From positions 2,728,001-2,792,000 of the forward strand of contig NC_019745.1 in NCBI RefSeq assembly GCF_000317555.1: 64,000 bases of DNA, written 5' to 3'. The DNA is from Gloeocapsa sp. PCC 7428 (GTDB lineage Bacteria; Cyanobacteriota; Cyanobacteriia; Cyanobacteriales; Chroococcidiopsidaceae). Each line of letters starts with the position of its first letter. Within the stretch, counting starts at the first letter, position 1. The notes under the pieces were generated by a model that saw only the letters and a list, made by a program, of their open reading frames with translations, had not been told where the DNA came from and ran no database searches. Shown here in pieces: positions 4,274 through 59,304 of the stretch. A program made the position numbers and the translations under genes.

Positions 4274-5846
4274 AGGAAAGCGAGGGTAAAGATTCTAATG
4301 CTGCACCTGGGACTTTTTCTAACACAGGTAGCGTTACCGTAAAAGTTGTTCCTTGCCCTTCACCTGCACTATCAACTGCAACTGTACCATGATGTAGTTC
4401 TACTAAATGGCGGACAATGCCCAATCCTAAACCAAGCCCGCCATGGCTGCGCGTTGTAGTGCTATCGCCTTGGCGAAAAGTGTCGAATACATAGGGAAGA
4501 AAGTCAGGACTAATGCCAATACCAGTATCTTGCACGTGAATCTGCGTATGCGCAGCATCAATCGATTCTACACGTACTGCTACGATACCGCGTTCAGGAG
4601 TAAACTTAATTGCATTCGTGAGTAAATTCCAAATGACTTGTTGTAAACGTTCAGGATCGGCACAGACAAGATTGGTGTTGGTGTCAAAATACGTTTCGAG
4701 TTGAATCGCTTTCGCCTCAGCTGCTGGGCGTACTGCATTGATTGCGGCTTCGATGATGGGTATCAAGTTGACTGGACAAAGGTGCAACCGCAGTTTACCT
4801 TGAATAATCCGTGAAATATCGAGGATGTCCTCGATGAGTTGAGCTTGCGATTTGGCGTTGCGTTCGATTGTTTCGAGGGCTTTGGCAATTGTTTTTTCGT
4901 CAAACTTGCGCGTACGTAAAAGCCTCGCCCAGCCGAGAATCGAGTTTAGAGGGGTACGTAGTTCGTGGGATAGAACTGCGAGAAACTCATCCTTCATACG
5001 GTTCGCAGCTTCAGCTTCGGCGCGTGCGGCTTGCTCGTAAATGAGTTTACTGCGTTCTGCTTCTGCTTGCTTGCGATCGCTAATGTCTTCTAAAGTTCCG
5101 ACATAACCAATGACTTCGCCTTTGTCACAAAGCATCGGCGACGATCGCAAATGCACCCAACGTACGGTAGATTGTGTTTGAATGCGAAACTCGTTTGAGT
5201 ATTCTTGTCCACTCTGAAAACACGCAGACCATTCATTAAAAATGCGATCGCGTTCTTCAAGATGAATTATTTGCCACCAATTTTCGGTAATTTGCTCTCG
5301 CGTACACTCACAAATTATTTGACACCGCGAGTTCATATACGTACATTTTCCTGCGGGATCAATTAAAAAAATTCCGACTGGGGAACTTGCACTTAAGCGC
5401 CGAAAGCGTTCTTCATTTTTTTTGAGTTCGGCGGCTTGTCTTTCAATTTGTGCGGTTTTTTGGTACAGTTCTACAAAAACAGCAACTTTGGAAGTTAAGA
5501 TTTCCGGCTGAATCGGTTTAAATAAATAATCTACCGCCCCTAGCGAATAACCTCGAATTTGTAGCGTATCACTGGTGCTAAAAGCTGTGAGGAAAATAAT
5601 GGGTGTCGAGTGCGATCGCGCCCGTTGACGAATGAGTGTAGCCGTTTCAAACCCATCCATATCAGGCATTTGCACGTCGAGCAAAATGACGGCAAAATCT
5701 TGATTTAATAAGCATCGCAGTGCTTCCATCCCCGAATGCGCTTTGACAAGGTTTTGTCCCAAGCCCTCTAAAATCGCCTCCAGCGCCAAGAGATTCTCTG
5801 GATGGTCATCTACCATAAGAATATTGACTTTCGGTTCTGATGGCAT
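4272..5846 (-). CDS. Response regulator-PAS-histidine kinase
   Basis: Soluble sensor kinase of 524 residues with a receiver domain in front. Order: REC (about 8-130, phospho-Asp in VILLDVQMPDMDG), PAS/PAC (about 150-270, ending DISDRKQAE), HisKA with the [14 protein letters not shown] His box (about 295-360), and HATPase with DTGIGIS and GGLGLGLGI. The architecture suggests a phosphorelay element that takes phosphate from another kinase and senses a ligand through PAS. I prefer the ATG at 5846, preceded by AAGGTGA, over the TTG seven codons upstream, which has no ribosome-binding site. It lies downstream of a CheR and a larger hybrid kinase on the same strand, which are plausible partners. 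The input signal is unknown. Confidence 0.9.
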   Translation of the reverse strand: MPSEPKVNILMVDDHPENLLALEAILEGLGQNLVKAHSGMEALRCLLNQDFAVILLDVQMPDMDGFETATLIRQRARSHSTPIIFLTAFSTSDTLQIRGYSLGAVDYLFKPIQPEILTSKVAVFVELYQKTAQIERQAAELKKNEERFRRLSASSPVGIFLIDPAGKCTYMNSRCQIICECTREQITENWWQIIHLEERDRIFNEWSACFQSGQEYSNEFRIQTQSTVRWVHLRSSPMLCDKGEVIGYVGTLEDISDRKQAEAERSKLIYEQAARAEAEAANRMKDEFLAVLSHELRTPLNSILGWARLLRTRKFDEKTIAKALETIERNAKSQAQLIEDILDISRIIQGKLRLHLCPVNLIPIIEAAINAVRPAAEAKAIQLETYFDTNTNLVCADPERLQQVIWNLLTNAIKFTPERGIVAVRVESIDAAHTQIHVQDTGIGISPDFLPYVFDTFRQGDSTTTRSHGGLGLGLGIVRHLVELHHGTVAVDSAGEGQGTTFTVTLPVLEKVPGAALESLPSLS

Positions 5847-5910
5847 TGCTTCACCTTGAATAGACAATTGGGGAGATATGGCAGTACACTCTGAAGTTCT
5901 AGCGATGAAG

Positions 5911-5945
5911 AGTGGCTAGTAGTTAGTCACGAGTTACTAGCCACT
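5911..5945. repeat. Intergenic palindrome with 11-bp stem
   Basis: AGTGGCTAGTA pairs perfectly with TACTAGCCACT across a 13-base loop. The same CTAGCCACT word recurs near 45090, between clpR and clpP, so it looks like a member of a short dispersed palindromic repeat. There is no T-run on the minus strand, so it is not a simple terminator for the flanking genes. Confidence 0.6.
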
Positions 5946-6032
5946 TTTACTTACCTTCGTAATCAACTAGATTGGGAATAAACTCTCACTTGACAATGAT
6001 CTTTTTTTAGCAAATGATGACCTGAATCGCTA

Positions 6033-6851
6033 CTAACTGATTTTTTGATAAAGTCGTTCACGACCTGCTAATTGTTTATAGTATCTTTCTCGTTGACTTA
6101 AAGGGAGTGTTTCTTGATTTCCCAACCCCAAAATGCCAAACAAGCACAAACTTTCATAAAAAAGCTTGTGGACTTGCTGCTGGAGTGACTGATTAAAGTA
6201 AATGAGGACATTGCGGCACAAAATTGCATTAAATTCATTGAACGAGCGATCGCATACTAGATTGTGTTGCGCAAAGACGATGTTTTCTTTGAGAAACGCG
6301 CGGAAAATTGCACGATCGTAGGCTGCGGTGTAATACTCGGAAAATGATTGCTTACCTCCTGCTTGTAAATAGTACTGAGTATATTCTTGCATCAGTCGCA
6401 AAGGAAAAATTCCAGCTTTGGCAGTTTTTAATACCGTCTCATTGATATCTGTTGCGTAAATGCGACAACGATGATATATTTCTTCTTCATGCAATAAAAT
6501 TGCTAGTGAATATACCTCTTCACCAGTGGAACACCCCGCGCACCAAATACGAACAAACGGATAGGTTTTGAATAAAGGTATCACTTTTTGTCTGAAGGTG
6601 AGATAAAAGCTAGGATCGCGAAACATTGCAGTTACATTAACTGTCATGTAGCCAAGAAATTGCTCGAAAAAAGCGCGATCGTGCAAAACTTTTGCTTGCA
6701 GTGCTGAAACAGTAGCTAACTTCTCTAAGTATAAAATATTCTGAATGCGGCGTTTGATAGCAACAGGAGCGTAACGGCGAAAATCCAAACCGTAGTAATT
6801 AAATATACCTTCTAGCAATAGCTGAATTTCAATATCTTCAAGTTCGTTCAT
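6033..6851 (-). CDS. CheR-type protein-glutamate methyltransferase
   Basis: SAM-dependent methyltransferase of the CheR family, which methylates glutamates of chemoreceptors. Visible are the N-terminal helical domain (about 1-75) and the SAM-binding segment VRIWCAGCSTGEEVYSLAI, then IYATDINETVL and FNAILCRNVLIYF, all typical CheR motifs. The start at 6851 gives MNELEDIEIQ, a usual CheR N-terminus; ATGs at 6875 and 6980 are alternatives, and the longest form would overlap the upstream kinase by 77 bases. No ribosome-binding site decides it. No CheB or chemoreceptor is visible nearby, and the flanking genes are hybrid kinases, so it may act in a non-chemotactic signalling module. Confidence 0.88.
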   Translation of the reverse strand: MNELEDIEIQLLLEGIFNYYGLDFRRYAPVAIKRRIQNILYLEKLATVSALQAKVLHDRAFFEQFLGYMTVNVTAMFRDPSFYLTFRQKVIPLFKTYPFVRIWCAGCSTGEEVYSLAILLHEEEIYHRCRIYATDINETVLKTAKAGIFPLRLMQEYTQYYLQAGGKQSFSEYYTAAYDRAIFRAFLKENIVFAQHNLVCDRSFNEFNAILCRNVLIYFNQSLQQQVHKLFYESLCLFGILGLGNQETLPLSQRERYYKQLAGRERLYQKIS

Positions 6852-6903
6852 ATTGCTAATTGCAATAGTCAACATAGTTAGTACGAATCTGGTCTCTGAC
6901 CTC

Positions 6904-9900
6904 TTACTGATACAACCAAACACGCATGAGCGATAGCAGTTGCTCGATATCAACTGGCTTAGTAATATAATCTGACGCACCCGCAGCGATGCATTTTTCG
7001 CGATCGCCTACCATCGCTTTCGCCGTCAGTGCAATAATTGGTAGCGATTGAAACTGTTCTTTGGCACGAATTGCCTGCATTGTCTGATAACCGTTCATCT
7101 CTGGCATCATCACATCCATCAGGACAATATCAATATTTGGTGTTTGTTCTAACAGAGCAATTCCTTCTTTACCATTTTCCGCAAATAAAACGTGCATTTG
7201 ATAGCGCTCTAGCACGCTTGTGAGTGCGAAAATATTGCGTACATCGTCATCAACAATCAAAACGTGTTTTCCTGTCAGTAAACTATCGCGCTGTGTTGGA
7301 GGTTCGTGACGTTTAGGTGTAGGTAAAGAGGCTTGCACGCGGTGCAAAAATAAAGCGGTTTCATCTAATAACCGTTCGAGGGAGACACCGAGTTGCAGAT
7401 CGCTTCCTTGGGGTTGATCCTTGATCACGATCGCTTGTGCAATGCGCTTGAGTTCAGTTTCTTCTTGGCGTGTAAGTTCAATACCCGTATAGACTATGAT
7501 GGGTAATTCGCTACTATACTGCTGTTTAATCGCTTGAATTAGCTCAAACCCACTCATATCGGGTAGCCCCAAATCGAGGATTAGGCAATCAAAATGATGA
7601 TGTTGCAGTGCAATTAAGGCTTCTGCGCCCGTACCCACAGCCATCACCTCAACATCTTTGTTTTCCATCAACTCGGCAATATTTTGGCGCTGCGCGGCGT
7701 TATCTTCGATGACAAGGAGATTTTTGACTTGATGCGCGGCGATTTCTTTGATGTCAGCGAGAACTTTGGCTAAAGCTTCACTATTAACAGGCTTTTGTAC
7801 ATAAGCGATCGCCCCAGGAGATAAACTGTAAGTAAAATGTTCGCGTCCCGCAATTGTATGTACTGGAATGCGTTGCGTTTTGGGATGATGCTGTAGACGC
7901 TCTAGTAAGGCACTACTATCGAGATCGGGTAAGTTGATATCAACCATAATGCCATTTGGTTGAAACTGCTGGGCTAGCAGAAGTCCATCATTGGCATTTT
8001 GGGCTAAGAGAACTTTAAACCCGTGTTGTTGTGCCATGTTAAGTAAAACGCGAGCAAAGTTAAGATCGTCTTCAACGATTAACAGCGTGCGATCGCCTTG
8101 TTGAATTTCGTTGCGATCGTCTTGAAGGAAGGGGCGAGAAGTGGGGGGTGAGGGATGAGAGATTTTTTTATCTTGTTTGTTTTCTTGTTTTTCCCTCACC
8201 TCCGATCTCTGAATTTTGTTTCCTGTATCATTAAGCGGTAGATAAAGCGTGAACGTACTACCTACGCCTAACCGGCTGACAAGCTGTATATCTCCGCCTA
8301 AAAGTCGGGCGATTTCGCGGCTAATCGATAAACCTAAGCCAGTACCGCCGTATTTACGATTTGTTGTACCATCAGCTTGTTGAAACGCCGCAAAAATTAA
8401 TTCGTGCTTATCTTGTGCAATACCAATTCCGGTATCTTCTACTGCGAAAGCTAACACGACATCCGCACGATTCAACGATTCTTGCTTAGGGTTCCATCCT
8501 TCAGTCGCAATATCAATCTTAAAGCTAACCTTTCCTTGTTCGGTAAATTTAAAAGCATTCGCCAACAGATTTTTTAAAACTTGTTGTAAGCGTTTACCAT
8601 CGGTATAGATAACATCAGGTAAGCGATCGCGAGCAAACTCGACAGTAAATTCTAGCCCTTTGTCTTGCGCAATTTGCTGAAATGTCCGCTCAATATTGAC
8701 ACGCAAATCGGTTAACGTCAGCGGATTGATATCAACGGACATTGTTCCCGATTCAATTTTGGCAAGATCGAGAATGTCGTTAATGAGTCCGAGTAAGTCT
8801 TTTCCTGAAGCATAAATTGTGCGGCTGTATTCTACTTGTTTTTCGGTTAAGTTACCCGCACCATTATCCGCAAGTAATTTCGCTAAAATTAATAAACTGT
8901 TGAGCGGTGTCCTGAGTTCATGGGACATATTCGCGAGAAACTGCGATTTATATTGCGAAATTCGCTCTAATTCAGTAGCTTTTTCCTCTAAAGACTGTCT
9001 GGCGCGATCAACTTCTTCATTTTTTTGTTCTACTTCTTGATTTCGCGCCGAAAGTAACTCAGCTTTTTCTTCAAGTTCTTCGTTGAGTTGCTGCAATTCT
9101 TCGTTTGTCTGCTGTAACTCTTCTTGCTGCTGTTCGAGGCGGTGATTGCTGTTTCGCAGTTCTTCTTGCTGCGCTTGAAGTTTGATTGTTAAAGCCTGTG
9201 CTTGCTGTAGTAGTTGTTGCGTGCGCGAGTCAGAGGCGATCGTATTGAGGACAATTGCCAGGTTATCACTTGCTTGCTCTAAAAACGTCACGTGAAGTTC
9301 GCTTAGACGTTGTAAGGATGCAAGTTCAATCACGGCGCTAACTTGGGAATTAAATACTATCGGTAAAACAATAATCGTTTGCGGTGTCGCTTCGCCTAAA
9401 CCAGAACGAATTCGCAGATAGTGACTTGGTACTTCAGTGAGTAAAATTTTTTGCTGCGTTAAGGCACATTGTCCGATTAAACCTTCGCCTAATTGAAATT
9501 TTTGTGGTATTTCTTCTTGATGTGCGTAGCTGCTTAGAAGTTTAAGAACTGGTTTCTCATTGCTAGTATCCATCAGGTAAAAAACACCTTGTTGGGCATT
9601 TACCAAGGGAACTAATTCAGATAAAACAGATTCAGCAACCTTCTCGATATTTCTTTGACCTTGAAGCATGAGTGCAAACTTTGCTAAGTTTGACTTGAGC
9701 CATGCCTGCTCATTATTTTTTATTGTTGTTGTGCGTAAACTCGCAATCATCTGATTAAAAGTACGAGTTAAGACACCAACTTCATCTTGGCGATTTTGTT
9801 CAGGGACACTAACAAATAAATCTCCTGCGGCTAGCTTTGTCACCACTGCTGAAACTTCGGCGAGAGGTTGTGAGATATTTTTGCTGAGAAAATAAGCAAT

Positions 9901-32654: not shown

Positions 32655-33038
32655 CTAAGACTGATAAATTTCTAAAGGTAAGGCGTCAGGATCTTGAAAG
32701 AAAGTGAAGCGTTTACCTGTTATTTCATCAACTCGAATTGGTTCTACCTCGACACCTTTTGATTGCAGTTCGAGTACAGTTTTCTCTAAGTCTTCTACCG
32801 CAAAAGCAAGATGTCTTAAACCACAAGCCTCTGGCGTACTTGGTCTTGTAGGAGGATTAGGGAAGGAAAATAACTCAATTTGGTCTTTGCCAATTTGTAA
32901 ATCTAATTTGTAAGAGTTTCTTGCAGCCCGAAAAGTTTCGTTAATTATTGAACAGCCTAAAACTTCGACATAAAATTTTTTAGAGCGTTCGTAGTCAGAA
33001 CATATGATCGCAACGTGATGAATTCCTGTAGTTTGCAT
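32655..33038 (-). CDS. VOC superfamily (glyoxalase-like) protein
   Basis: A 127-residue VOC-fold protein resembling the SMU1112c/YaeR glyoxalase-like group. It begins with GIHHVAIICSDYERSKKFYV, holds a central ELFSFPNPP, and ends with RHLAFAVEDLEKTV and FFQDPDALPLEIYQ, each supplying metal-ligand positions (His, Glu) of the fold. The family binds divalent metals and acts on varied small molecules; the substrate here is unknown. It appears monocistronic. Confidence 0.88.
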   Translation of the reverse strand: MQTTGIHHVAIICSDYERSKKFYVEVLGCSIINETFRAARNSYKLDLQIGKDQIELFSFPNPPTRPSTPEACGLRHLAFAVEDLEKTVLELQSKGVEVEPIRVDEITGKRFTFFQDPDALPLEIYQS

Positions 33039-33289
33039 GGAACATTCTGTTTAAATCTTGAATGTAACAGAAAGTCATATTGAGCGTCCTCAAAAAACAG
33101 AAACAACTTTCTGGCAGCAAAATACTCACATCTATCCTCAAGTTCTAACTACTAATACCAAGGAGAAAGAACTTGACTTTATTGTAAGTCCAGCCAAGCT
33201 CGTTTCCTACTAGGAGTTATATGAGCGGGTAGAAAATATCAAAGTATTGCTAAGATTCATCTAAAGACTCGTATGACGATAAAGCAACA

Positions 33290-33775
33290 TTATTGCATAG
33301 CCCCAATTAAGTAATCGAAGTATCCACCAGCTTCACTCGCATCTTCTGTAGACATCATTGTACTAGTAACATTTTTCATTGCGCGGACGCTCTCGACCAC
33401 AGCCTCTAGGGGAGTACCTAAGGAGCGATACATTTGACGGACACCAATAACCCCAATTTCTTCAATCGGCGTAGCATCACCAGCTACAATAGCATAAGTG
33501 ATCAAACGCAGATAATAATCCATATCGCGCAAGCAAGTTGCCGTCATTTCCCGACCGTAGGCGTTACCTCCAGGAGAGACAACATCAGGACGCCTTTGAA
33601 ACAGTTGGTCTCCAGCTTGCTTAATAATGCGCTCTCGGTTGGCTGTCAAGGTCTGAGCAAGGTGCAGGCGACGCTCACCACTCTCAGCTAAAATCTTCAT
33701 TTGTTCTAGTTCACCAGGACTAGGATAGCGAGTTTCGGCATCTGCATTTACAATCAACTTTTTGACAATACTCAT
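33290..33775 (-). CDS. Allophycocyanin alpha-subunit paralogue (ApcA-like)
   Basis: Phycobilisome core protein of 161 residues. Typical ApcA text: [40 protein letters not shown], the chromophore Cys in [20 protein letters not shown] and the end [10 protein letters not shown]. It differs from common ApcA in several positions (for example [20 protein letters not shown] and [15 protein letters not shown]), so it is a diverged paralogue rather than the housekeeping copy. It is not ApcD, which has a different chromophore segment. Unlike the usual apcA it has no adjacent apcB or apcC and sits in a stress gene set with OCP and NblA. It may make special core cylinders or act as an OCP docking subunit. 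Confidence 0.9.
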
Positions 33776-33991
33776 TAAAGGATTCCTTTATGTAAAGAAT
33801 GAAATCAAATCTAGTCAAATCACAATTCAATTGATTTACTATGTTTTCGTTCACTTGAGCTAAAAAATTAAACACAGCCATTACTAATAGATTCTAGTTT
33901 CTAGTTAGAAACTCATTACTTTATTCAGCAATATCACGTTTAACTAATAATTCAACAAAAACATAATTATTTGGTTAAGGGATTAAACAAA

Positions 33992-34027
33992 CAAGAATTC
34001 ATTGTCTAGTTAGACCGTGAATTCTTG
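33992..34027 (-). terminator. Probable terminator of the pentapeptide-repeat gene
   Basis: CAAGAATTCA pairs with TGAATTCTTG around an inner GTCT/AGAC stem. On the minus strand the hairpin is followed by a T-rich stretch (about 33981-33991). Confidence 0.55.
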
Positions 34028-34034
34028 TTACTTT

Positions 34035-34319
34035 TTAACCGAAGTAATTTGCAGAAGCTAGGAGATCGTTGTGTAACCTACCATCTGGCATTTTTGTTCC
34101 CCTCAAGTTAGTTCGCTTTAGATTTGCTCCTTTCAAACTAGCCCAATTGAGATTAGCATTGCTTAAATCTGAGCCACTTAAATCTGAGTTTCGTAAGTTG
34201 GTTCCGCTCAAATCTACTCCGCTGAGATTTGCCTTAATTAAGCTTATTCCTTGCCAGTCTTCTTGCCTAAAATCTCTGTTGCCGGCTGCATATCGTTTTA
34301 AAACTTCATTGGCATCCAT
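34035..34319 (-). CDS. Pentapeptide-repeat protein
   Basis: A 94-residue protein containing about ten A(D/N)LXX repeats: KANLSGVDLSGTNLRNSDLS, then GSDLSNANLNWASLKGANLK and RTNLRGTKM. Such repeats fold as a right-handed quadrilateral beta helix. The function in cyanobacteria is generally unknown. It sits between the ApcA paralogue and the OCP gene on the same strand, with about 410 bp to OCP and a terminator-like hairpin after it, so it may have its own transcript. Confidence 0.9.
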   Translation of the reverse strand: MDANEVLKRYAAGNRDFRQEDWQGISLIKANLSGVDLSGTNLRNSDLSGSDLSNANLNWASLKGANLKRTNLRGTKMPDGRLHNDLLASANYFG

Positions 34320-34732
34320 ACTGGCTGCCTCACTGATGATTAGCGCGATCGCTATTTATATATTCATCATACATCACAATCAGTAGACTTACCAAAATAA
34401 TGTTTTTCTTAATCATTAACAGGCAAAAAAATGACAATAATACTATTTAATTTGTATTTTTTAGCTATATTTAATATAGATATGTATCCCCACAATTTTC
34501 TTTAACAAATGCTTTGTTTAGAAAGTTTTTAAGAGATGCAGGTAAGCACAAGTTGCAAAAATGGGGCTTACAAAAACATTTTAGAGTATTAACTAATATT
34601 TGATAAACTCGAAAAAAAAGTAGCACAGGTTATACAAAAGGCAAGATTGCTTATTTGTCTCACGCTTACCAACACTCAGAGGATAGGATGTCTAACAAAC
34701 TTGCCTATTATACTTGCGTTCAGGAACTTCCT
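34320..34732. other. AT-rich gap between pentapeptide-repeat gene and OCP gene
   Basis: 413 bp with no gene, repeat or clear hairpin; probably the promoter and leader of the pentapeptide-repeat gene and the 3' end of the OCP transcript. Confidence 0.5.
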
Positions 34733-35689
34733 TTATTTTACAAAGCCCATGTTTAGGAGTTCTTGAGGAGAGGCTAGCACGTCAATTGCCACAAAGAAAA
34801 TCTTGCCTTGAGGATTGAGCAAAAACCGCCATGCTAAATTTATGCTCACACTGTCACCAGCCCAGGGAGTCTGCACTTTACCCGTCACTTTAATCTGAGT
34901 AAATCCTTCTACAGGTTCAGAGATCCCTTGTTCAGGTATCAGCTTGAGTCCGTAGCATTCTTCATGCATATACGCCAGGATGGATTCTTGACCGACAATT
35001 GGTTCTTGGAAAGGGGGTTGTAAGGCACCGTCTTCAGTAAATAAAGCAACAGCCGCTGGGAAATTAAAGGCGTTCATATTCTCCATGTAACTCAGAACTG
35101 TTTCATTGTTGATGCCTTCAATGTTGATCTGAGTTCGGGGTGCAACTTGTTGAGGAGGAACTGCGGGTTCTTTGATTTTTTGAGTGTCAACTGATGAGGT
35201 ATATCCCATGTTGACAACAATATCTTGTAATACAGTAAGTTGCTGCCCTGGTTCAAGTTGACGAATGGCTTGCAGCACATCCGATGCTTTCGTAGATAGT
35301 TGATAGCCTTCTGGGATAGGGGCAACAATTCCCTGTTTCATCCACTCGCTTAACTGATACCAGAAACCTAATTTGACATTCGTACCGAAAGACGAATAGG
35401 TACGACAGATAGGAGTATCAGTATGGTTAACTAAATCGCACATCACTTGCGTTTGCTCTTGCGCAGGCATCTGCTGGATTTGAGTTAGGGTTTTTTCGGC
35501 GAAGATCATATTGGCTGCCCCTACAGCAGCAGGAGTGATTGTCACTCCCATCTCGGTATAGACAAACCAAAGTAAAGCTAACTGATCTTCACCACTAAGT
35601 TGATTGAATGATTCAACCGTAGCCGGAATTACATTAGCAACTTGAGTATCAGGAAAAATGGAACGTGCAGACTCGATAGTAAACGTCAT
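34733..35689 (-). CDS. ocp: Orange carotenoid protein (full length), unusual at residue 155
   Basis: Blue-light sensor that binds a keto-carotenoid and, when photoactivated, binds the phycobilisome core and quenches it. Both domains are present: N-terminal helical domain (1-165) with FTIESARSIFPDT, MGVTITPAAVGAANM and the carotenoid pocket residues Tyr44 and Trp110, and the C-terminal NTF2-like domain with Tyr201 and Trp287 (equivalents of the ketone-binding Tyr201/Trp288 of Synechocystis OCP). The linker is 165-190. Glu244 is kept (HEEC) but the partner Arg155, needed for phycobilisome binding in Synechocystis, is Gln (TVLQDIVVNMG). Position 101 is Phe, not Trp. It may belong to an OCP2/OCP3-type group. 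It is flanked by the ApcA paralogue side and ftsH. Confidence 0.96.
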   Translation of the reverse strand: MTFTIESARSIFPDTQVANVIPATVESFNQLSGEDQLALLWFVYTEMGVTITPAAVGAANMIFAEKTLTQIQQMPAQEQTQVMCDLVNHTDTPICRTYSSFGTNVKLGFWYQLSEWMKQGIVAPIPEGYQLSTKASDVLQAIRQLEPGQQLTVLQDIVVNMGYTSSVDTQKIKEPAVPPQQVAPRTQINIEGINNETVLSYMENMNAFNFPAAVALFTEDGALQPPFQEPIVGQESILAYMHEECYGLKLIPEQGISEPVEGFTQIKVTGKVQTPWAGDSVSINLAWRFLLNPQGKIFFVAIDVLASPQELLNMGFVK

Positions 35690-35828
35690 AATCGAAACTT
35701 CTCCAAAACGAAATTATATTGATTTGTTAGCAAGGATTAATTTTGTGGCTGTGCAAAATCGAATTGGGATAAAATCCGTTGCGCGATCGCATATTTAGAA
35801 TCGTTAAACGCCCAACGCAGTGGTAGCC

Positions 35829-37703
35829 TTAATGTGTCAATTGCATTGAGTTGCCGTCTTGAACTTGACTAAGTAGGCTGTGCAGTTTCTCACCCTCAAT
35901 AACTTCTGTCTCTAACAGTTGAGTAGCGATCGCCTCAAGTAAGTCGCGGTTCAGCTTGAGCGTATCCAAAGCTTGACGATGAGCGGTCTCTACAATGTCT
36001 TTCACCTCGCGGTCAATTGCCTGCGACGTTTCTTCACTGACCATCCGGCGGGGATTGGGCGCACCATCAGTCAGAAACATAGCTTGCTGTCCCTGTTGGT
36101 AAGCGAGCGGACCTAACACTTTACTCATACCATACGTTGTCACCATTCGCTCTGCTAGATCAGTCGCTCGTTGCAAATCGTTAGATGCACCAGTCGTGAT
36201 ACTGCCAAATACAATTTCTTCTGCCGATCTGCCACCAAGTAGAGTGGCGATCTGACCTCGGAGTTCAGCTTCGTCTAGAAGGAATCGATCTTCGGTTGGC
36301 AGTTGCAAAGTATAACCCAATGCTGCCATCCCTCGGGGTACGATCGAGATTTTCTCAACCCGACCACTTCCCTGCGTTAAGGCACCAACTAGTGCATGAC
36401 CTACTTCGTGATAAGCAACAATCTTCTTTTCCTTGTCATTAAGAACGCGGCTTTTCTTTTCAAGTCCAGCTACCACCCGCTCAATTGCCTCAGCAAAGTC
36501 TTTTTGTGCCACGGTTGGACGTTGACTGCGGGCAGCTAATAGTGCCGCTTCATTCACGAGATTTGCGAGATCTGCGCCAGCAAAACCAGGGGTGCGAGTT
36601 GCGATCGCTCTTAAATTCACGTCCCCATTCAACTTGACTTTTTGGGCATGAATATTTAGAATCGCCTCACGAGCCGATAAATCAGGGCGATCGACTAAAA
36701 CTTGACGGTCAAATCGACCAGGTCGCAAAAGTGCAGGGTCTAATACTTCTGGGCGATTGGTCGCTGCTAGGACAATCACAGTAGCATCACCAGCCGCAAA
36801 CCCATCCATTTCTGCTAACAGCTGGTTGAGTGTTTGTTCTCGCTCATCGTTACCGCCATAAAACCCACCACTGCTACGAGACTTGCCGATCGCATCTAAT
36901 TCATCAATAAATACGATACAGGGAGCCTGTTTCTTCGCTTGCTCAAACAGATCGCGCACCCGCGAGGAACCAACGCCGACAAAAAGTTCCACAAATTCAC
37001 TACCAGAGATACTAAAGAACGGTACTCCTGCTTCTCCTGCAACCGCCTTTGCCAGCAGCGTTTTACCGGTTCCTGGTGGACCTACTAACAGCACACCCTT
37101 GGGAATCCGCGCGCCAATTTGGGTATAGCGCTCTGGAGCCTTGAGGAAATCTACAATCTCAACTAATTCGGTCTTGGCTTCTTCAACCCCAGCTACGTCA
37201 GTAAAGGTAGTCTTGTCAGATTCTCCTTCTACATAAACTTTGGCTTTACTCTTACCAATCGAGAGTACACCTTGGGGACCACCCCCACCGCGTCTGCTAA
37301 AAAACTGCCAAATTGCTACAAAAATTAGAGGCGGAATCACCCAACCCAGCAGACTAGTAAACCAGCCATTCTTAGGTGGCGGTGCGGCTGCAAACTCAAC
37401 GCCTTTCTCTTCTAACAACTTGGGCAAGCTCAAATCAAAAATGGGTGTCGTTGAAAACACAGTTCCAACTTCGTCATCGACAGCTTTCAATTGAAACCGA
37501 ATCTGGTTTTGACCAATTTGAGCGCGACCAACTTCTCCTTGCTGCACCTGATGAATAAACAAACTATAGGGAACAGCAGGAATTTGAGGACCAAAGAAAC
37601 TAGGCAAGATAAAGTTTGCGAGCAAGAATAATACAGGCAACGCTAGTAAAAGATTACCAATCAGGCGAGAACGAGGAGAATTAGGTTGTTTTTTAATGGG
37701 CAT
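35829..37703 (-). CDS. ftsH: FtsH membrane protease
   Basis: AAA+ zinc metalloprotease of thylakoid or plasma membrane; cyanobacterial FtsH complexes replace damaged photosystem II proteins. Two transmembrane helices (about 15-35 and 115-135) flank a lumenal domain. Then come Walker [15 protein letters not shown], Walker [13 protein letters not shown], the second-region-of-homology [20 protein letters not shown] and the zinc site [11 protein letters not shown]. Length 624 is normal. I chose the ATG at 37703, preceded by GGTGA; an upstream TTG/GTG is less likely. Which of the four cyanobacterial types (FtsH1-4) it is cannot be fixed here; the position next to OCP suggests a stress-specific copy. 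Confidence 0.96.
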
Positions 37704-37810
37704 GAGTATCACCAATATTGAGCATTTGAGCAGCTTTATTTATAAATATTAAAAATAGCTACAGAGCGGTAAAGGGCAGTGTGCAAATGTGTCGGTCACT
37801 CGGCTTGACT

Positions 37811-58485: not shown

Positions 58486-58794
58486 AAAAAACTGTTTTTA
58501 CGGATTCTATTAGGATTCTTTGCGAAAGATTGTGAGATTGACTCGCTTTGCCCAACAATACGACTTGTAAAGTTGAATATCATCGAGTACAACGATCAAA
58601 GATGCAGCATGTAACGACATCATTATTCATAAAATCTCAAATCAGTAGTCAAATTGGCATAGAATCCATAAGTAGCCAGTAAATTGCCTGTATCGCTATT
58701 TCATAGTTCAGGCACCATAGTCATAAATACTAGGTACAAAAAAATCGAGTAAGAATATCAAACCACAAATAGGAAATATTTGGAGAGCAATTTC

Positions 58795-59304
58795 ATGCGG
58801 GACGCGATTACAACTTTAATTGGAACTTATGATGTCGCAGGTCGGTACTTTGACCGCGATGCGATGGAACGGCTGAAATCTTATTTTGAAACAGGGACAG
58901 CACGAGTCCAAGCCGCCGCCGCAATCAATGGCAACGCCGCCGCAATTGTCAAACGCTCAGGTTCGCGGTTATTTGAAGAACTCCCTGAACTCATTCGTCC
59001 TGGTGGGAATGCTTACACCACACGGCGATACGCCGCTTGCTTGCGCGACATGGACTACTACCTACGCTATGCTACTTATGCGCTCGTCGCTGGCAGTATG
59101 GATGTATTAGATGAACGCGTGCTGCAAGGTTTGCGGGAAACTTACAATTCGTTGGGCGTGCCAATTGGTCCCACGATTCAAGGTATCCAAATTATGAAGG
59201 ACATTGTTAAAGAGCAAGTTGCCGCAGCCGGAGTCAGCGATACCAGTTTTGTCGATGAGCCGTTTGATTATATGACAAGCGAGTTGGGCGAACAAGATAT
59301 CTAG
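58795..59304 (+). CDS. apcF: Allophycocyanin beta-18 subunit ApcF
   Basis: Minor core phycobiliprotein of the phycobilisome, part of the terminal-emitter trimer next to ApcE. The start MRDAITTLIGTYDVAGRYFD, the loop RLFEELPELIRPGGNAYTTR and the chromophore Cys in [20 protein letters not shown] match ApcF. ApcB differs in the loop. Start at the ATG at 58795, with GGAGAG before it; the upstream TTG is not used. It is alone, 420 bp from the divergent glnA. Confidence 0.95.
   Translation: MRDAITTLIGTYDVAGRYFDRDAMERLKSYFETGTARVQAAAAINGNAAAIVKRSGSRLFEELPELIRPGGNAYTTRRYAACLRDMDYYLRYATYALVAGSMDVLDERVLQGLRETYNSLGVPIGPTIQGIQIMKDIVKEQVAAAGVSDTSFVDEPFDYMTSELGEQDI

Follow-up and report, generated by a model that had tools for sequence, protein, structure and literature searches.

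The window, the whole 64,000-nucleotide stretch of DNA analysed here, carries on its minus strand a gene for an OCP, here called ocp2, which is flanked on the same strand by genes for an FtsH protease, a pentapeptide-repeat protein and a paralogue of ApcA. The features considered below are:

34733-35689, minus strand: ocp2, an open reading frame of 318 amino acids with its ATG at 35689 and its TAA at 34735-34733
ocp2 residues 15-164: Carot_N N-terminal domain (PF09150, 224.6 bits)
ocp2 residues 195-305: NTF2-type C-terminal domain (PF02136, 50.5 bits)
35227-35225, minus strand: codon 155, CAA, Gln (Arg in the aligned OCP1 and OCP3 rows)
34958-34960, minus strand: codon 244, GAA, Glu (the partner of Arg155 in OCP1)
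35609-35611, minus strand: codon 27, TCA, Ser (Arg in the OCP1 rows)
35387-35389, minus strand: codon 101, TTC, Phe (Trp in the OCP1 rows)
33290-33775, minus strand: apcA paralogue, 161 amino acids, downstream of ocp2 and 957 bases past its stop codon (301.8 bits to the NCBIfam equivalog model of ApcA)
34035-34319, minus strand: pentapeptide-repeat protein, 94 amino acids (PF00805), between ocp2 and the apcA paralogue
35829-37715, minus strand: FtsH protease gene (TIGR01241, 810.8 bits), upstream of ocp2 across a gap of 139 bases

The protein consists of a Carot_N domain followed by an NTF2-type domain in one chain, the domain arrangement of an OCP, and the carotenoid-contact residues Y44, W110, Y201 and W288 are all present, as window residues 44, 110, 201 and 287. 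Alignment with the Synechocystis chain 7sc9, with which the window numbering stays in step past 244 and is one short at 277, confirmed the residue states listed in the original prediction: S27, F101 and Q155 stand in place of R27, W101 and R155, and E244, Y201, Y44 and W110 (as well as N104 and W277) are common to both proteins. The interdomain salt bridge described for OCP1, R155-E244, is absent from the window protein, which has Q155 and retains E244. Codon 155 is a plain CAA, indicating that Gln155 is a clean sequence state and not the product of a frameshift. Nor is it a sequencing slip, given that Gln is shared with orthologues from the same genus and the same family (L133, L104) and with most natural OCP2 sequences (47 of 54). 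Comparison of ocp2 with L104 gave a dN of 0.018 and a dS of 0.16 (dN/dS about 0.1), indicating that the gene is under purifying selection. A scan of positions 33000-36000 for promoters and terminators found no excess over shuffled sequence (8 versus 7.3 and 1 versus 2.2, respectively).

In a search of the host genome (5,882,710 bases in 5 contigs), the window gene was the sole full-length OCP found. The remaining Carot_N matches are single-domain or broken; residue 155 is Arg in all four that are intact and Thr in the broken match. One locus (L001 1420-2535; G000:C1 near 1213681) holds a split OCP-like pair, a single-domain HCP gene followed 135 bases on by a CTDH-like gene on the same strand. 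Another (L006 1234-1734; G000:C1 3488625-3489116) is a further HCP-like copy that lies in tandem beside an intact HCP and has an internal TAG and Thr aligned to 155.

Among PDB chains, 8pzk_A matched best, sharing 317 of 318 residues with the window protein; the sole difference is residue 26, which is Glu in the window and Ala in the chain. The window protein is thus almost certainly already known, as GcapOCP2 of Gloeocapsa sp. PCC 7428, crystallised as PDB 8PZK. The second PDB match, 8pyh_A, likewise differs only at residue 26 (E26 to A) from the OCP of another genome (G424, L145), and we infer that 8PYH is CrinOCP2 of Crinalium epipsammum PCC 9333. Because both crystallised chains have Ala26 where both genomes encode Glu26, one construct change, E26A, was seemingly made in both, and the Glu of the window protein seems to be the natural residue. 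The near relatives L104 and L133 also have Glu26. The GcapOCP2 construct is described as spanning residues 1-318 of UniProt K9XH36 and as half-melting at 66-67 C (PMC11009388, whose text gives the strain as PCC 7418 in one place and PCC 7428 in another). An article from 2025 (PMC12525769), which credits both OCP2s to a structural paper of 2024, states that GcapOCP2 and CrinOCP2 quench Synechocystis phycobilisomes upon photoactivation and reports no quenching of Gloeobacter phycobilisomes by either protein.

We compared residue 155 across OCP families in an alignment of 197 full-length sequences, comprising the window protein, 8 PDB references and 188 distinct proteins from the loci collected; two loci with 452-residue frames (L194, L062), two with separate HCP and CTDH genes and stops (L001, L084) and all loci whose match did not span query residues 20-300 were left out. 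The OCP1 group was defined by R27 with W101 for residue tallies, or by W101 alone for the FRP tally described below, in agreement with the tree. OCP2 formed one clade of 56 rows that includes the window protein, 8pyh and 8pzk (FastTree support 0.996), and a reduced tree that omitted columns 155 and 244, as well as 8pzk as a near copy, recovered the clade with an SH-aLRT of 99.7. The 86 OCP1 rows, which carry the group-defining R27 and W101, join OCP2 in a larger clade of 142 rows. An assignment to OCP3 or OCPX (the clade with 8A0H or 7YTF) was ruled out, as the window protein falls within OCP2 in both trees, and membership in OCP1 was ruled out by S27, by F101, by the position of the OCP1 rows outside the OCP2 clade and by the lack of an FRP match in the genome. 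Hence, of the suggested "OCP2/OCP3-type variant", the OCP2 half stands and the OCP3 half, a separate clade, does not.

With the two PDB rows excluded, residue 155 is Gln in 47 of 54 natural OCP2 proteins and Arg in the other 7; outside OCP2 it is Arg in 141 of 141 rows (86 OCP1, 13 of the 7yth type and 42 OCP3, 6 of them PDB references). On this census, Gln155 appears to be a character of the OCP2 subfamily, and its usual state, rather than the oddity of one protein for which it had been taken. Together with the dN/dS ratio, the census rules out Gln155 as a private oddity or a sign of decay. Ser27 and Phe101 had also been singled out, but F101 is found in 56/56 OCP2, 13/13 7yth-type and 36/42 OCP3 rows, and being so widespread outside OCP1 it leaves both residues of the window protein ordinary; R27 with W101 is the OCP1 state. 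Within OCP2, codon 155 is CAA (21) or CAG (26) for Gln and CGA (3) or CGG (4) for Arg, a single transition apart. No residue other than R or Q occurs at 155 among the 197 rows, and parsimony on the reduced tree requires 3 amino-acid changes at the site compared with 7 changes at the third position of its codon, which together suggest that site 155 is constrained and not drifting. Both OCP2 copies of one genome (G007; L105 and L150) have Arg155 and are nested among Gln155 sequences, an arrangement best read as a return from Gln; this apparent return indicates that Arg is not useless in OCP2. The same genome has one ApcA match only, and its two Arg155 copies offer a useful natural control protein.

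The other half of the salt bridge varies as well. Residue 244 is acidic in 140 of the 141 rows outside OCP2, the exception being a Gln244 in L110. Of the 8 Arg155-OCP2 rows, 3 have Gln244 (8pyh, L144, L145) and 5 keep both Arg155 and Glu244 (L022, L139, L150, L105, L037), so that, with PDB rows included, 48 of the 56 OCP2 rows have Gln155 and 3 have Gln244. The two solved OCP2 structures therefore both lack the canonical pair, by opposite halves: 8PZK has Q155 and 8PYH has Q244. OCP2 is further marked by replacements of its own, L151 (56/56 rows), F208 (56/56) and Y246 (55/56), which among the 141 rows outside OCP2 occur in 0, 10 and 0 rows, respectively. Because L151 and F208 are already present in 8/8 and Y246 in 7/8 Arg155-OCP2 rows, these replacements are suggested to have preceded loss of the bridge. 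We infer from this order that they arose first and may have made the Arg155-Glu244 bridge dispensable, residues 151, 208, 246 and 284 having a putative role at the interface.

Position 155 has been invoked for both dark-state closure and phycobilisome docking in OCP. In Synechocystis OCP1, replacement of Arg155 by Leu is reported to suppress quenching without loss of photoactivity (PMC5686206). Quantum calculations on the OCP-phycobilisome complex are reported to assign to the charge at 155 the largest single OCP contribution to the carotenoid quenching state, Arg155 having the largest effect on the carotenoid dark-state transition dipole on the phycobilisome side; ApcA K61 and R62 and ApcB K53 contribute to the same transition dipole, and ApcA D64 opposes it (PMC10997198). 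The original prediction had taken Arg155 to be needed for phycobilisome binding and had expected Gln155 to weaken the closed dark state and alter docking. The need for Arg does not carry over, since GcapOCP2, with Gln155, is reported to quench Synechocystis phycobilisomes (PMC12525769); by that report docking is not lost, and charge at 155 would not be needed in every OCP. We found no support for a weakened closed state; the reported half-melting at 66-67 C (PMC11009388) is at most an indirect gauge of closure. OCP2 mostly lacks the charge at 155 yet includes proteins reported to quench, and so offers a natural counter-example to the Arg155 rule.

A profile search of the host genome gave no PF18032 (FRP) match. 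The model works, as it matched 12 of the 40 relatives searched and, in the phylum sample, 81 of 386 genomes. Among the 102 genomes with an OCP class assigned, FRP was found in all but one of the 72 that have OCP1 and in none of the 30 that lack it. This tally classed 71 of the 81 FRP genomes. The ten left over comprise seven with OCP matches that were not included, one (G038) with partial OCP frames only and two (G149, G308) with no full-length OCP match. These last two either carry FRP without a known partner or have an OCP that was missed in the assembly, and they indicate that FRP and OCP1 are not perfectly tied. The expectation that the window protein does not respond to FRP agrees with its place in the OCP2 clade, with the empty search of the host genome and with the 71/72 versus 0/30 distribution, and the window OCP2 is expected to work without FRP. 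Recovery of OCP2 has been described as passive and faster than that of OCP1, and OCP2 itself as monomeric (PMC10172135, PMC9157063); OCPx and OCP3 are also described as recovering passively (PMC10172135).

The nearby ApcA paralogue on which part of the original prediction rested proved both real and recurrent. It is 80.7% identical to the canonical ApcA of the host genome. Another phycobiliprotein gene, with 123.5 bits to the ApcA model, lies at 58780-59304 on the plus strand of the window, and we take it to be ApcF-like. Linkage was counted over those distinct OCP loci for which 5 kb or more of a 7 kb flank was available, an ApcA homologue being scored at 60% or more within 3.5 kb. Such a gene was found near 10 of 39 Gln155-OCP2 loci (11 of 40 if the window locus, which is outside the 39, is added), compared with 0/5 Arg155-OCP2, 0/11 7yth-type, 0/24 OCP1 and 0/30 OCP3 loci (10/39 versus 0/70, Fisher 1.5e-5, relatedness ignored). 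All ten linked genes are on the OCP strand, upstream or downstream, 76 to 2674 bases from the OCP match. A pentapeptide homologue occurs near 9 and an FtsH match near 8 of the 39 Gln155-OCP2 loci, and neither near any of the 70 others. One OCP3 (L272) has a distant phycobiliprotein gene (37% identical) at 4.06 kb, beyond the 3.5 kb limit. Counted by hand with at most 9 candidates scored per genome, 8 of 21 OCP2 genomes had at least two ApcA genes, as did 19 of the 367 others in an order sample of 388 (Fisher 2e-5, relatedness ignored); 13 of the 21 had one ApcA match or none. On the OCP2 tree, linkage required 9 changes for 11 linked tips of 45 scored, close to the mean of 10.0 in 500 shuffles, indicating that the linked loci are scattered over the tree, as frequent loss of an old cluster or repeated gain may explain.

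The OCP2-adjacent ApcA proteins formed one clade (SH-aLRT 92.7) together with three copies that are not beside OCP2 (G003_L311, G377_L315, G669_L304), and where one genome (G673) has two relevant genes, the OCP2 neighbour (L302) falls in this clade and L313 is a canonical ApcA. In L241 (G450; 5440-6963, minus strand) the ApcA paralogue starts 72 bases past the OCP2 stop codon (76 between aligned ends), a gap short enough that the two genes may share one transcript; L026, from Microseira wollei, has the same arrangement. Two OCP2 loci (L138 3164-2928 and L060 2794-3030) have beside them a 79-residue ApcA-like stretch, 45.6% identical, possibly a decayed or distant phycobiliprotein. By eye, the ORF lists of L009, L020, L241 and L245, from several genera, contain receiver-like frames just upstream of OCP2 or the ApcA paralogue, and those of L009 and L245 share a small protein with the stretch QQRYIF. 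No description of an OCP2-ApcA pairing was found in the literature searched, which did not take in the main OCP2 papers. A review describes a variant ApcA2 that Nostoc PCC 7120 induces when starved of nitrogen (PMC2327270). The far-red protein also named 'ApcA2' is a different one and resembles ApcD (PMC4390838).

Residues 61-64 of ApcA, which include the charged residues named above, are KRPD in 14 of 15 canonical proteins compared. The window paralogue has RRPD and differs there from the canonical ApcA of its own genome only by K61R, keeping the charges of R62 and D64. Elsewhere the paralogues have R/KFPR (Nostoc, Tolypothrix, Calothrix), KRPT, RRPS, SRPY, KRRD or, in one case, KRPD, and Asp64 is changed in 6 of the 12 compared. 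Of 95 positions that are invariant in canonical ApcA, 21 vary in at least 4 of the 12 paralogues, and position 64 is one of these; D64 as the single altered spot was thereby ruled out. The patch is not singled out, and it provides a lead rather than evidence of matching surfaces.

Very probably, the window encodes the OCP2 of PCC 7428 (or of a strain whose gene has the same sequence), a functional photoswitch that quenches phycobilisomes and recovers without FRP in a lineage in which the Arg155-Glu244 bridge is dispensable. The residue states, the clade, the single-transition codon path and the lack of an FRP match were observed here; the quenching of Synechocystis phycobilisomes by GcapOCP2 and the FRP-free recovery of OCP2 are as reported in the papers cited. 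Under this explanation, the interdomain bridge would have become dispensable in the OCP2 lineage as OCP2 gained L151, F208, Y246 and mostly I284 while keeping N104, W277, Y201, W288, Y44 and W110; most OCP2 proteins would then have lost the bridge when Arg155 became Gln, and the Crinalium line, independently, when Glu244 became Gln. The OCP2-wide replacements would have taken over the closing role, and OCP2 would dock without a positive charge at 155. Against this explanation stand the suppression of quenching by Arg155 to Leu in Synechocystis, the large dipole effect of Arg155, the apparent return to Arg in G007 and the presence of FRP in two genomes with no full-length OCP match.

Gln155 could instead be a tuning change, in which closure without the bridge gives OCP2 its fast FRP-free kinetics and selection has been for speed and not through loss of need. 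The reported passive and fast recovery of OCP2, the loss of the bridge in two different ways in a subfamily outside which both halves are nearly invariant, and the want of any third residue at 155 are consistent with this idea, which we consider possible but hold only tentatively, because five OCP2 rows keep both Arg155 and Glu244, and OCPx and OCP3, which keep the bridge, are also said to recover passively. Loss of the bridge is thus neither necessary nor universal for FRP-free recovery. That Gln155 marks a decayed OCP which no longer quenches and serves only as a carotenoid carrier or singlet-oxygen scavenger is highly improbable. The Arg155 to Leu result in OCP1 would favour decay, but the frame is intact, dN/dS against L104 is about 0.1, Y44, W110, Y201 and W288 are kept, the gene is the sole full-length OCP found in the genome, and quenching reported for GcapOCP2 in vitro contradicts it.

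The original prediction itself, in which Gln155, by weakening the dark state and altering docking, would fit the protein to the adjacent ApcA paralogue, draws on the linkage of paralogue and OCP2 on one strand, on the excess of OCP2 genomes with at least two ApcA genes, and on the alteration of several paralogues at the 61-64 patch that meets OCP. We nevertheless regard it as unlikely: 29 of the 39 loci have no such neighbour, and 13 of the 21 OCP2 genomes have no second ApcA match; only five Arg155-OCP2 loci could be scored (0/5), a number too small to link the neighbour with Gln155 in particular and not with OCP2 as a whole; and the window paralogue has only K61 changed to R in a patch that is not singled out among the varying positions. 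GcapOCP2 is also reported to quench the phycobilisomes of Synechocystis. We know of no such ApcA paralogue in that organism. More speculatively still, and in our estimate quite improbably, OCP2 and this non-far-red ApcA paralogue could form a dedicated photoprotective pair, in which the paralogue would partly replace canonical ApcA in the core under stress and present an altered docking patch, at which OCP2, no longer dependent on Arg155, would quench. In several lineages, the window not among them, the paralogue lacks Asp64 and in some cases Arg62, charged OCP-docking residues in the OCP1 complex, and charge loss on the OCP2 and paralogue sides may have gone together. Genomic linkage makes functional pairing a candidate, and the recurrent adjoining paralogue provides a specific candidate core subunit that would be matched to OCP2. 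The value of the window gene lies in this candidate pairing and in its being a natural exception to the Arg155 rule.

Among characterised proteins, GcapOCP2 (8PZK, by the inferred link) has Q155, S27, F101 and E244 as in the window protein and differs from it only at residue 26. CrinOCP2 (8PYH, by the inferred link) shares with it the OCP2 clade, F101, a residue other than Arg at 27 and the lack of the R155-E244 pair, but retains Arg155 and has Gln244 instead of Glu. The split switch of PMC9157063 likewise uses an OCP2, that of Fischerella thermalis; the gene of F. thermalis PCC 7521 (L013) encodes Gln155 and a product 83% identical to the window protein. Synechocystis OCP1 (3MG1, 7SC9) resembles the window protein in its two domains and in Y44, W110, Y201, W288, N104, W277 and E244, but differs in having R155, W101 and R27 and, according to the papers, in being regulated by FRP. 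Gloeobacter OCP3a (8A0H) and OCPX, like the window protein, have F101 and a residue other than Arg at 27 and are described as FRP-free in recovery, yet OCP3 proteins form a separate clade and have R155 in 42 of 42 rows aligned.
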